A stretch of 64,000 nucleotides of DNA from an uncultured Clostridia bacterium (lineage in GTDB: Bacteria; Bacillota; Clostridia; Lachnospirales; CAG-274), in NCBI GenBank assembly GCA_944381435.1, contig CALWLD010000003.1, positions 1-64,000 on the forward strand, written 5' to 3'. The notes below the pieces were generated by a model, which saw only the letters and a list, made by a program, of their open reading frames with translations, made no database searches and was not told where the DNA came from. Made by a program: the position numbers and the translations under genes. Positions within the stretch are counted from its first letter, which is position 1, and each line of letters starts with the position of its first letter. This document shows, in pieces, positions 24,354 to 28,146 of the stretch.

Positions 24354-24400
24354 TTAAGATAAAAATACCATCTATTTAATAGACGGTATTTTTATCTTAA
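24354..24400. terminator. Bidirectional terminator between converging genes
   Basis: A 22-bp stem with one mismatch (24354-24375 with 24379-24400) flanked by A and T runs. It serves the plus-strand GNAT and the minus-strand sensor paralogue, whose stop codon it overlaps. Confidence 0.85.
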
Positions 24401-25497
24401 TCATATAATTTATAGCTAAAATCTCCTTTTTGTTTTGAAATAACATTTTCAAAATCTTTAGCATATTCTGCTCTTATTTCATCAAGGTTTTTTTGTTTTT
24501 TACTATCTAAATCTATATCTATATTTTTTTCATTATTTTCTCTACGTATTTCACCTTGAAGTTTTTCTATTTTTAAGTAATCTGATTTTAAAGAAGATGG
24601 CACTATATCTACTTTATAACTTTTAGCTTTTGTTTTAGTTAAAGTTTCTTTAAAATCTGTATTAGCTTTTATTTCATATTCTTTAACCATAGCTTGGTCA
24701 TAACTCATAGTTTTATTATCAAAAACATCAGTTGATATGTCATATACAAATAAAGTATAATCTTCGTTACTTTTATTATTAAACATTAAATCTAAGTTGT
24801 TATGATTTCCTGCATCTATACGGAAAGTTCTTTGCCCTTCTATTTGTGTTTTAACATTATCTTTTTCTTTTAACGCAACAGGATAAGTAAATTCTTTTGG
24901 TATATTTGTTATGCTATCAACCCCTAATTTTTCAAGGTCATAAGCAGATGTAACTGTTATATCAAAAGATATAGGTATATTTTTATCACCATTATAAAAA
25001 TCTAAATAATATAAACAGCCAGGTTTTAAAACTTCAAAAACATAAGTAGTTGTTTTGCTAGGCTCTATTGTAAAAGTATCTAAATATACTCTTTGCATAT
25101 CGTCATTTATATTAAAATATACACTATATAGTTGACAAGTTAATTTGCCTCCCTCTAAATTTTCTTTAATGGTATTTGTTACCTCTATTTTAGCAAAATT
25201 GTTGGCACTTCCATACATATTTCCAGAATTATCTAAATAAAATTCTAAATTTAATTTGTTACCAACAGATGATATTTCTCTTACAAATGAACCTTTTAGC
25301 TCTACTTGTGATGTTTGATTTTCTTTAGATACTGGTTCTCTTTCAATCACTTTTCCTTCTACATAAAAGTTTGCCCCTTCTTCAAAACTTCTTTTAATTG
25401 GAGTTTTTGCAAAAACTGTATAATATAAAGTTAGTGATAAAATACAAATAATAAATACAGCAAGGCTAGTAATAAAACATATATTTTTCCTTTTCAT
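24397..25497 (-). CDS. Membrane-anchored paralogue of the adjacent BlaR1-like sensor domain
   Basis: 366 residues. One N-terminal span (about 7-29), then a wholly extracytoplasmic region. No family I know matches, but it aligns along its length with residues 360-725 of the neighbouring receptor: FAK after the span, VELKGSFVRE against VQLKGTFIKE, TTYVFE against VTYVFE, LGVDSITN against LGVDSISN, NKSNEDYTLFVYD against NKSNDEYSIFVYD, and the C-terminal KQKGDFSYK against RQEGSIYYK. It is therefore the same two-part domain without the peptidase. Third gene of the operon, 14 bp after the receptor gene; a decoy, co-sensor or ligand-binding partner are possible roles. Confidence 0.75.
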   Translation of the reverse strand: MKRKNICFITSLAVFIICILSLTLYYTVFAKTPIKRSFEEGANFYVEGKVIEREPVSKENQTSQVELKGSFVREISSVGNKLNLEFYLDNSGNMYGSANNFAKIEVTNTIKENLEGGKLTCQLYSVYFNINDDMQRVYLDTFTIEPSKTTTYVFEVLKPGCLYYLDFYNGDKNIPISFDITVTSAYDLEKLGVDSITNIPKEFTYPVALKEKDNVKTQIEGQRTFRIDAGNHNNLDLMFNNKSNEDYTLFVYDISTDVFDNKTMSYDQAMVKEYEIKANTDFKETLTKTKAKSYKVDIVPSSLKSDYLKIEKLQGEIRRENNEKNIDIDLDSKKQKNLDEIRAEYAKDFENVISKQKGDFSYKLYD

Positions 25498-25511
25498 ATT
25501 TTTCTCTCCTT

Positions 25512-27689
25512 CTAGTTAAAGAATTTATAATATATACTACCTTCTTGTCTTAATAAAATTTCTTCGTATTTATCATAATATGCTCTACCTAATTTTTCAT
25601 ATTCTTCTTTCGTTTTAGACTTAAGCTCATCTATATCTACGTCTTGTTCTTCACATTCTTTGAATAACTGTTCTTGTAAATCTTGTAATTTCAAATAATC
25701 TTCTCTTAAAGCTTTAGGCACAATACGTACATTATATTCTTTACATAATGTATTTGTTATATTTTCATCAAAAACAGAATTAGCTTTTACTGTATATTCC
25801 TTATAAATAGTGCTATTTACAGATGATTTGTAATCATAAACATCTCTAGATTCATCATATACAAAGATAGAGTATTCGTCATTTGATTTATTATCTAATT
25901 TTAAATTTAGATTTTTATAAAATCCCATACTTAAGTCAAATGTTCTTTTGCCTCCACCATTTTTCTCTTCGTATGTAGAGTCTGGTCTGTTAGGTATATC
26001 ATTAAGACGCTCACCGTCTGTATATTTTAAAAATTCTGTTTTTTCAGTATATAAGTTTGATATGCTATCAACACCTAAAGATTCTAATGTATATCCTGTA
26101 GTTACTTCTATATTAAAAGATGGTGCGTATCCATTTTTATGAGAAAATTCTAATTCATATCTGTTAAACTGTGGTATGTTTTCAAAAACATAGGTAACTT
26201 TTTTATTTTTAGGAACATAAAACTTTCCTAAATATACACCTTCTTCCATACCTGTAGCATTATTATAATATCTTCCATATATATTACATTTTAAATCAAA
26301 TGTATTATTTTTATCATCTTTATGTTTTCCTATATTTTCAAGCTCTATTTTTACATATTTATCTGTACTACCCTCTGTAGCATTAAAATATTTTCTAGGG
26401 CTAAAATCTAAATACATATTACCTACAGATGGTTCTTCTTTTATAAAAGTACCTTTTAGCTGTACATCTGGTGTAAGCTGTTCTTTCTCAAACTCTGGTA
26501 AGATATTTGTTTTTATTTCTACCTCTTTACCATCTATAAGTCTAGCATTGCTATCTTTTATTTTCATAGGCTCATCAAATGTTCTATCAATAGTAAATTT
26601 TTCTTTTGCAAAAACATCAAATTTATTATTAGAATAATATATACTAAATATTAAAATAAATATAATACAAGCAAAAGTAAAAAAACTACTAGCCAAAGTT
26701 ATTTTTAATTTGTTTTTTGGCTTATCTTTTATCATAATATTTTCAAGCCTCCTTTTAAGGTTATTTTTGTTACAAGCAAATGTTGTAGAAAAATATATAT
26801 TTGTATTTTTGTTAGGATTTAAGCTATTTAATATAGCTAAACAGTAATCTTTTTCCTTATTTTCATTATGTATTTTTATAAGTTTTTCATCACAAGAATA
26901 TTCACAATATTTGTCTATATCTTTTATTAAAAAATATATTAATGGGTTAAAGAAATTTAATGTGTTAATAAATAATAACACTAACTTTGTTATTAAATCT
27001 TTTCTTTTAAAATGTATAAGCTCGTGGGTTAATATTAGTTCTAAATCGTCTATACTAATACTTTTTTTAGGTAAAATTATTTTTGGTTTTATTATTCCTA
27101 CAAGCATAGGAGAAGATACATTGTTATTTTCTAATAATAAAATATTTCTATGTATATTTAATTTTTCTTTAGTTTTATTTAAAATTTCACTGTATTCATC
27201 ATTTAATATGTAAATGCTTTTTCTAATATTAAGCTTAAATTTTATAAAAAACACTAAATTTATAAACACAAATAATATAATACCTATTATATATAAATTT
27301 TTAATATAATTTATATTAAATTGCATTTTTTCTTTAGAATTATCTTCTACAAGGCTTGTACCTTCAATTTTATTTTCATTTTCCACCTTATTATATATAA
27401 CATTGTCTACATTAGAAGATATAGGTGTAACCTCTTGTGCTATAACATTTAACTCTTTGCTATCTTGTATGCTTTGTGTTATTTCTATAGGAGTATATGG
27501 TTTAAGCTCTATGTTTGGTATATATAAAGATAAAATATAGCTTATAGGTATTATAAAAGCAAGGGCAATAATTTTTGATATATTATAATAGGATTTAGAT
27601 TTTAAGTTATTTTTTAAAAACTTTTCTAAAATCTTAAATAATATATAAAATATAGACCCTAGCAGACTAATACTTAAGATTAAATACAT
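25512..27689 (-). CDS. BlaR1/MecR1-like M56 receptor peptidase with novel sensor domain
   Basis: 725 residues. Membrane spans occur near 2-20, 38-57, 129-149, possibly 233-255, and 331-351. The M56 zinc-protease signature is LTHELIHFKRKDL (HELIH at 222-226), with CEYSCDEKL as the further ligand region. In classical BlaR1 the outer domain is a penicillin-binding fold; here residues 352-725 show no SxxK/KTG signature and instead carry a domain duplicated in the next gene. Known relatives cleave a BlaI-type repressor when their outer domain senses a signal, and the adjacent BlaI gene fits. The signal is unknown. Confidence 0.82.
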   Translation of the reverse strand: MYLILSISLLGSIFYILFKILEKFLKNNLKSKSYYNISKIIALAFIIPISYILSLYIPNIELKPYTPIEITQSIQDSKELNVIAQEVTPISSNVDNVIYNKVENENKIEGTSLVEDNSKEKMQFNINYIKNLYIIGIILFVFINLVFFIKFKLNIRKSIYILNDEYSEILNKTKEKLNIHRNILLLENNNVSSPMLVGIIKPKIILPKKSISIDDLELILTHELIHFKRKDLITKLVLLFINTLNFFNPLIYFLIKDIDKYCEYSCDEKLIKIHNENKEKDYCLAILNSLNPNKNTNIYFSTTFACNKNNLKRRLENIMIKDKPKNKLKITLASSFFTFACIIFILIFSIYYSNNKFDVFAKEKFTIDRTFDEPMKIKDSNARLIDGKEVEIKTNILPEFEKEQLTPDVQLKGTFIKEEPSVGNMYLDFSPRKYFNATEGSTDKYVKIELENIGKHKDDKNNTFDLKCNIYGRYYNNATGMEEGVYLGKFYVPKNKKVTYVFENIPQFNRYELEFSHKNGYAPSFNIEVTTGYTLESLGVDSISNLYTEKTEFLKYTDGERLNDIPNRPDSTYEEKNGGGKRTFDLSMGFYKNLNLKLDNKSNDEYSIFVYDESRDVYDYKSSVNSTIYKEYTVKANSVFDENITNTLCKEYNVRIVPKALREDYLKLQDLQEQLFKECEEQDVDIDELKSKTKEEYEKLGRAYYDKYEEILLRQEGSIYYKFFN

Positions 27690-27702
27690 AAGGTTACACC
27701 TC

Positions 27703-28074
27703 CTATAGTTTATTTATCCAGTCTTTAAGCTCATCAATATCCTCTTTTTCTATTTGTTCATTATATAATGCAGATAAAAAGTTTTTAATAGAACCATTGT
27801 ACATATTGTTTAAAAAGTTTTTAGCTTGCAAACTTTTATACTGTTTAAAGTTTATTTTGGGGCTGTAAAAATATGTTCTTCCTTGTTGGCTAGACTGTAA
27901 AAGACCTTTTTCTACCAACCTTTTTAAAAATGTAGAAAGAGTTTGTACTTTCCAATCTTTACCTTGGCTATTAAAGTATATTAACAAATCACCTGAAGAT
28001 ATAGGCTCATTTAAAGACCAAATATAATCCATTATTTCTTTTTCTGTTTCGGACATATTTTTTGCAACATTCAT
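27703..28074 (-). CDS. BlaI/MecI/CopY-family repressor
   Basis: 123 residues from the ATG at 28072-28074, well placed behind GGAGG; longer frames run back through the operators. The winged-helix domain is clear: SETEKEIMDYIWSLNEPIS, then LSTFLKRLVEKGLLQSSQQG and the wing RTYFYSP. The C-terminal half forms the dimerisation and cleavage region. It should repress its own operon by binding the two TACTACA-type dyads upstream and be inactivated through the M56 receptor encoded next. Confidence 0.92.
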   Translation of the reverse strand: MNVAKNMSETEKEIMDYIWSLNEPISSGDLLIYFNSQGKDWKVQTLSTFLKRLVEKGLLQSSQQGRTYFYSPKINFKQYKSLQAKNFLNNMYNGSIKNFLSALYNEQIEKEDIDELKDWINKL

Positions 28075-28092
28075 TTTCTTACCTCCTTTTAT

Positions 28093-28146
28093 TACTACAA
28101 CATTGTAGTATGATGTTATTGTACTACATCTATGTAGTAATGTCAA
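28093..28146 (-). promoter_or_regulatory. Promoter and two BlaI-type operators
   Basis: TTGACA (28141-28146), 17 bp, TACAAT (28118-28123) on the minus strand. Two dyads overlap it: TACTACAT-N2-ATGTAGTA (28122-28139), filling the -35/-10 spacer, and TACTACAA-N2-TTGTAGTA (28093-28110), near the start of transcription. Their centres are 29 bp apart. The arms match the known TACA/TGTA recognition of BlaI/MecI/CopY repressors, so autorepression is strongly suggested. Confidence 0.88.

Follow-up and report, generated by a model that had tools for sequence, protein, structure and literature searches.

A clostridial BlaI/BlaR1-type operon with a second, free copy of its sensor domain

What could an operon of the BlaI/BlaR1 type be sensing, and what would it make in response, when its sensor carries no penicillin-binding domain and its third gene encodes that same sensor domain again, as a separate protein? 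The question is raised by three genes of an uncultured Clostridia bacterium of the CAG-274 lineage, found in the stretch of DNA that we call the window: positions 1 to 64,000 of the forward strand of contig CALWLD010000003.1 (assembly GCA_944381435.1). An earlier note on this DNA had described, at 24397-28146, a repressor BlaI, an M56 metalloprotease receptor with an outer domain, here called X, and X alone. The three genes are indeed there, co-directional on the minus strand, with intergenic gaps of only 13-14 base pairs (bp). From promoter to terminator, the locus holds the following features.

28118..28146, minus strand: sigma-70-type promoter, TTGACA-17-TACAAT, matching the consensus at 11 of 12 positions
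28123..28138: operator 1, perfect dyad ACTACA-N4-TGTAGT between the -35 and -10 elements
28094..28109: operator 2, perfect dyad ACTACA-N4-TGTAGT just 3' of the -10 element, 29 bp from operator 1
27703..28074, minus strand: blaI, winged-helix repressor of the BlaI/MecI family, 123 residues (Pfam; alignment with BlaI structure 1sd4)
25512..27689, minus strand: receptor of 725 residues, an M56 metalloprotease with X as its outer domain (Pfam; BlaR1 structure 8exp)
26736..27680, minus strand: membrane and protease part of the receptor, with HELIH 222-226, E263xxxD267, Phe304 and the arginine pair 313-314
25515..26636, minus strand: domain X of the receptor, residues 352-725, with a signal-peptidase-like VFA at 359-361
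25515..25961, minus strand: C-terminal half of X, modelled as a beta-sandwich with an inserted helical hairpin (pLDDT 83)
24397..25497, minus strand: free, apparently exported copy of X, 366 residues, with an N-terminal hydrophobic segment followed by VFA (residues 28-30)
24354..24400, minus strand: intrinsic terminator with a 20-bp stem, directly after the free-X gene, closing the operon

There is good support for a self-contained signalling operon that responds to something other than beta-lactam, since the proteolytic and DNA-binding parts are intact and the outer domain has no sequence kinship with the penicillin-binding sensor. The earlier note had proposed such a circuit for an envelope signal, and had named beforehand two results that would count against it, a match of the outer domain to a sensor profile and a structural unlikeness of the two copies; neither appeared.

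We begin with the parts that resemble the known systems. The repressor scores 93.9 bits against the Pfam family Penicillinase_R (PF03965, cut-off 22.6), and aligns with the BlaI structure 1sd4 over residues 6-122 (E 1e-11); it falls below the equivalog of CopY/TcrY copper repressors, TIGR02698 (69.6 bits, cut-off 121.95). At the cleavage position it has a leucine where Staphylococcus aureus has a nearly invariant P1' phenylalanine, and leucine is common at that position in clostridial relatives (31 of the 100 scored, by pattern match). In the receptor, residues 4-318 match Peptidase_M56 (PF05569) with 152.5 bits, for a cut-off of 31. Alignment with the cryo-EM structure of BlaR1, 8exp, shows that both zinc motifs are kept, HELIH at 222-226 and E263xxxD267, that Phe304 is the equivalent of the autocleavage residue Phe284 of BlaR1, and that an arginine pair follows at 313-314; the roles of these elements in BlaR1 are taken from published work (PMC9834060). 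All the catalytic and autocleavage signatures of BlaR1 that were tested are present in the cytoplasmic half of the receptor, whose cytosolic machinery looks functional. The protease, its BlaI partner and the operators have thus all been kept, as was said from the letters alone. The receptor fails the BlaR1/MecR1 equivalog NF000326, with 123.1 bits for a cut-off of 400 and a match confined to residues 11-357, because its outer part differs.

This outer part, X, is a domain of about 370 residues. Its proposed extent, 352-725, describes a real domain, with the correction that the end of the last transmembrane helix is close to residue 348. Residues 342-725 of the receptor align with residues 16-366 of the free protein at 36% identity (E 3e-56), which is why we do not regard the repeat as due to chance: the outer domain does recur from end to end in the third protein. 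Neither copy was matched above chance in Pfam or NCBIfam, nor by sequence in the Protein Data Bank. The penicillin-binding signatures SxxK and KTG had been reported missing from the outer domain; neither copy contains a KTG, the S..K strings are scattered and form no ordered SxxK/SxN/KTG set, and neither has a match to PF00905.

A model of the whole of X, computed from two sequences, is poor, with a predicted local distance difference test score (pLDDT) of 52.6, and is mostly beta with a C-terminal helical hairpin. The C-terminal half models well alone (pLDDT 83, predicted template-modelling score 0.76): it is a beta-sandwich whose last strand is preceded by an inserted hairpin of two helices. 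X as a whole models as two beta-sandwiches, the second one being that with the hairpin. The structural look-up, one of the checks that had been suggested for residues 352-725 and for the 366-residue protein, gave only generic beta-sandwiches (XepA, PirA, Ena, GOLD, CBM22), none standing out, just as the profile searches gave no known sensor; the best structural Z scores, 8.1 for the N-terminal domain, in a low-confidence model, and 6.4 for the C-terminal one, are tied among unrelated beta-sandwiches, so that X is assigned to no named family. A kinship with XepA, suggested by a match of the whole model (E 3e-5, TM 0.22), was set aside given the poor quality of that model, and hhalign shows no relation between the two halves of X that would make them an internal repeat. 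Across the three known members of X, 84 residues are identical, including no histidine and one cysteine; the comparison of these three sequences reveals no conserved catalytic set, and favours a domain that binds rather than catalyses.

The free protein is predicted to be exported. Whether it is membrane-anchored, as first described, is uncertain, as VFA at 28-30 follows the hydrophobic segment: anchored, released, or both would fit. The same motif is found shortly after a hydrophobic segment in the receptor of the window and in that of the second genome with X, described below, and fits a signal peptidase. In S. aureus, BlaR1 sheds its sensor by signal peptidase (PMC9834060), and receptor X may be shed in the same way. 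This is a suggestion only: among M56 receptors in general, such motifs past the final transmembrane helix show no more than mild enrichment (40 of 124, compared to 24.7 in shuffles).

The operator pair overlaps the promoter of the operon, and both dyads are perfect. This promoter ties for the best promoter-like score in the region (11/12), the other site with that score being on the plus strand inside the free-X gene. In a genome collection of 257 gigabases, the tandem pattern with its 29-bp phase has ten matches, every one of them in a BlaI-M56 operon, in Clostridium, Oscillibacter, Dysosmobacter and others; we therefore identify the dyads of the window, with high confidence, as BlaI operators. 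As an observation apart, the loci with this fixed phase (L227-L236, for example L229:1195-1237) mark BlaI-M56 operons across Clostridium and Oscillospiraceae, and the pattern is usable as a finder of such operons.

A pattern search of the whole genome of the window finds the perfect operator at the promoter of this operon only. Three sites have one mismatch, and are inside rplD, atpA and an ABC-transporter gene, names that come from reading the translations; since all are within coding genes, none was kept as a secondary operator. Two operator-like sites in another genome, G004, are located in phage-type gene clusters and were rejected as well. Since the genome has no other perfect operator, the operon, free X included, is likely its own regulon, and no candidate output other than free X is apparent.

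How old is the second copy? We searched 61 relatives of the bacterium, 391 genomes of its class and 392 of its order, and found X in two genomes only: that of the window and that of a congener, G003, which is a metagenome bin (uncultured Clostridia bacterium isolate E14__bin244). No further homologue was found in viral contigs, plasmids, a first scan of genome contigs, or these class and order genomes; an extra match in one of the class genomes, G341, was dismissed, as it lies in unrelated genes. The comparisons of X rest on three sequences from draft assemblies that may contain errors, and very distant relatives may be missed. In G003, blaI is intact (78% identical) and is preceded by the same operator pair; a relic of an X-like gene, of about 230 bp, stands between operator and blaI. 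The receptor is split over two contigs, and its X domain is interrupted by frameshifts, either real or due to assembly errors. The receptor copies of X in the two genomes are 52% and 47% identical in their two halves, and both stand about equally far from free X, at 38-42% identity. Since they are closer to each other than to free X, the duplication seems older than the split between the two genomes, and free X would be an old paralogue, kept intact in the genome of the window.

The operon itself is patchy, and occupies different genomic sites. Its neighbour in the window is a nitrilase gene. In G003, G005 and G006, what follows this nitrilase gene is not the operon but an ABC-F-like gene, and in G001 it is yet another gene; the operon of G003 sits elsewhere, between an amidase and a permease. 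In G005, of the same genus, we also observed a short M56 receptor almost devoid of outer domain, followed by a secreted-looking protein of 74 residues (L118:917-2869).

Among the genomes searched, the set with X recurs only in G003, in decayed form, but the arrangement is found elsewhere with other domains. We surveyed 160 loci around M56 genes in the same family and class, comparing each outer domain with the products of neighbouring genes. The survey gave 142 outer domains with a length of 100 residues or more; 15 have the penicillin-binding motif pair and 127 do not. A homologous beta-lactamase-like neighbour is found beside 10 of the 15, so kinship of sensor and output is common in these related bacteria. 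Of the loci that hold the other 127, three (L217, L219 and L076) have, next to the receptor gene, a gene for a complete, exported protein that shares the receptor's outer domain. Two of these, in genomes G110 and G331 (L217:3532-8446 and L219:3544-8896), share a domain Z of about 110 residues and the order blaI, M56-Z, secreted Z, and a large secreted protein with WG repeats and an S-layer homology (SLH) domain. In L217, a gap of 200 bp lies 5' of the free copy; in both loci, no perfect dyad of the 6-bp type scanned is common to the blaI promoter and the gap before free Z. The third, in G027 (L076:4110-9096), has blaI, M56-Y, a secreted protein in which Y is fused to Cu_amine_oxidN1, and a further M56 receptor, which carries Cu_amine_oxidN1: the free protein unites the sensor domains of two receptors. 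Between X and Z, hhalign detects no sequence relation (probabilities 0.3-6.5%), and the Y proteins have no credible match to the profile of X. The operon of the window is consequently one of at least three non-beta-lactam cases of the same arrangement, with different sensor domains.

In this survey, homologous non-M56 neighbours are about 18 times more frequent, per comparison, within a locus than across loci; the figure compares 7 of about 127 x 25 with 61 of about 127 x 3990, before exclusions made by eye. The apparent free copies of L183 and L206 were not counted, since they look like truncated or split M56 tails, nor was that of L079, where only a stalk-like domain is in common. Some other loci deserve mention. 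In L106 (4167-5156), a free secreted protein of 329 residues resembles the M56 outer domain of another locus, Y-like by eye; its gene lies some 2 kb away from that of an M56 protein with only a short tail. Tandem M56 receptors with homologous outer domains are found in each of L104, L114, L180 and L163, which suggests that receptors are frequently duplicated. Finally, L183 (128-4442) has an M56 receptor with a DUF6034 outer domain, and another, homologous fragment lies upstream of blaI, where the contig ends.

We can now propose how the circuit might work. At rest, BlaI would occupy the two operators that overlap the only promoter of the operon. An extracellular ligand, or a change in the envelope, would act on receptor X and activate the M56 protease that faces the cytosol; BlaI would be cut, and the derepressed operon would yield BlaI, receptor and free exported X. 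Outside the cell, free X would bind the same ligand, and would be the response itself, as a ligand trap or an immunity-like protein, while damping the signal: a non-enzymatic counterpart of the beta-lactamase of bla systems. By this analogy, we tentatively conjecture that free X is an induced ligand-binding protein that both neutralizes the signal compound and damps the response. We rank this above a pure decoy, a co-receptor or homotypic partner, and a useless duplicate, because the operon holds the only perfect operators of the genome.

Several observations weigh against this choice. A trap works only if it is in excess over its ligand, and such an excess of free X is assumed. Weaker BlaI operators may have escaped the pattern search. 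Free copies are rare, being found in three of the loci that hold the 127 non-beta-lactam outer domains. Lastly, free X can be lost, as in G003, where it is a relic and blaI is intact; the reading frame of the receptor is also broken there, or misassembled.

The earlier note had offered co-receptor, decoy or target as possible roles for the second copy; the evidence leans to a fourth, that of an induced output like beta-lactamase in the bla systems, although X bears no mark of an enzyme. As a pure feedback decoy, free X would compete with the receptor for the ligand and switch the system off quickly, protecting against nothing. Its place in the same operon, under the same promoter as the receptor, fits this well, as does homology to receptor X over the whole length. 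The VFA motif of the receptors, that of G003 included, suggests that receptor X may be shed as in BlaR1 (PMC9834060), so that soluble X may be a normal damping product. However, in a genome without another perfect operator, the sole output of the system would then be its own damping, and we consider a pure decoy unlikely.

We give an equally small chance to free X as a co-receptor or homotypic partner, where sensing would proceed by X-X assembly: the free protein would present the ligand, or convey its own state at the cell surface, to be read by receptor X. Full-length homology between sensor and free protein is again what one would expect, and beta-sandwich folds like this one often make homotypic contacts. 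In the Z systems, the next secreted protein has WG repeats and an SLH domain, so these operons may manage surface proteins. On the other hand, the two copies of X have diverged to about 40% identity, and the interaction between them is hypothetical.

It is improbable that free X is a duplication remnant without a role of its own, heading for the loss seen in G003, where only the relic between operator and blaI is retained. The gene of the window is intact, is closely spaced with the receptor gene, and has its own terminator behind it. The duplication seems to have come before the divergence from G003; one would expect a copy at 40% identity to be broken if it were not under selection. As for a degenerate beta-lactam sensor paired with a diverged beta-lactamase or penicillin-binding protein, the bla-like BlaI and M56 parts are in its favour, but it is already contradicted, and very improbable, given the lack of an ordered motif set in X, the absence of a PF00905 match where a true pair of BlaR1 and beta-lactamase from the same family (L091) scores strongly, and predicted beta-sandwiches instead of the alpha/beta penicillin-binding fold.

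Returning to an induced, ligand-binding free X, the closest known counterparts are the bla and mec systems of staphylococci and bacilli (BlaI-BlaR1-BlaZ and MecI-MecR1-MecA). They share with the window the repressor, the M56 receptor with an outer sensor, the dyads overlapping the promoter, the autocleavage phenylalanine and the zinc motifs. In these systems too, sensor and output folds can be related, as the sensor of BlaR1 is similar to class D beta-lactamases (PMC5957439, PMC7593790). Contrary to them, the window has a sensor without penicillin-binding domain, a third gene for a non-enzymatic-looking copy of the sensor in place of beta-lactamase or PBP2a, and all its genes in one co-directional operon; its receptor would work like BlaR1 by analogy, and is not a member of the beta-lactam sensor family.

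A second comparison is with Clostridium thermocellum, also clostridial, for which one report (PMC8457756) gives experimental evidence of autoregulatory BlaI regulons of one to three operons. There, as in the window, each promoter has two inverted-repeat pairs. In C. thermocellum the two dyads serve four protomers, and the authors' candidate for the response is a hypothetical protein in the regulon. The half-sites differ, GTCTAT/GACTAT versus ACTACA; and both systems there are read by the authors as beta-lactam responses, with no mention of a duplicated sensor in the section consulted. Like the window, the operons of Z type have blaI, then an M56 receptor whose outer domain is undescribed, then that domain again in a secreted protein; they differ in the size and sequence of that domain and in the WG-repeat/SLH protein that follows. 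The Y-type operon has the same first three elements, but its free protein joins Y to Cu_amine_oxidN1, the domain carried by its second M56 receptor.

Non-penicillin outer domains are common among the M56 receptors of clostridia, as the 127 of 142 surveyed indicate. The open-licence papers searched name no ligand for any such receptor, and gave no report of sensor duplication in BlaI-M56 operons, which is not proof of novelty. An operon whose sole apparent output is a soluble copy of its sensor offers a direct handle on the ligand. The presence of this copy in the operon suggests that more of the ligand-binding part is produced once the signal arrives. It is possible, if speculative, that BlaI-M56 operons follow a wider design in which the receptor's sensor domain is produced a second time, free and exported, and is controlled by that repressor too; X, Y and Z would then be inducible, non-enzymatic traps against envelope-active compounds, and beta-lactamase induction one case among them. 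If this design does recur with unrelated domains, the bla system would be one example of a general inducible strategy, and not a special case.

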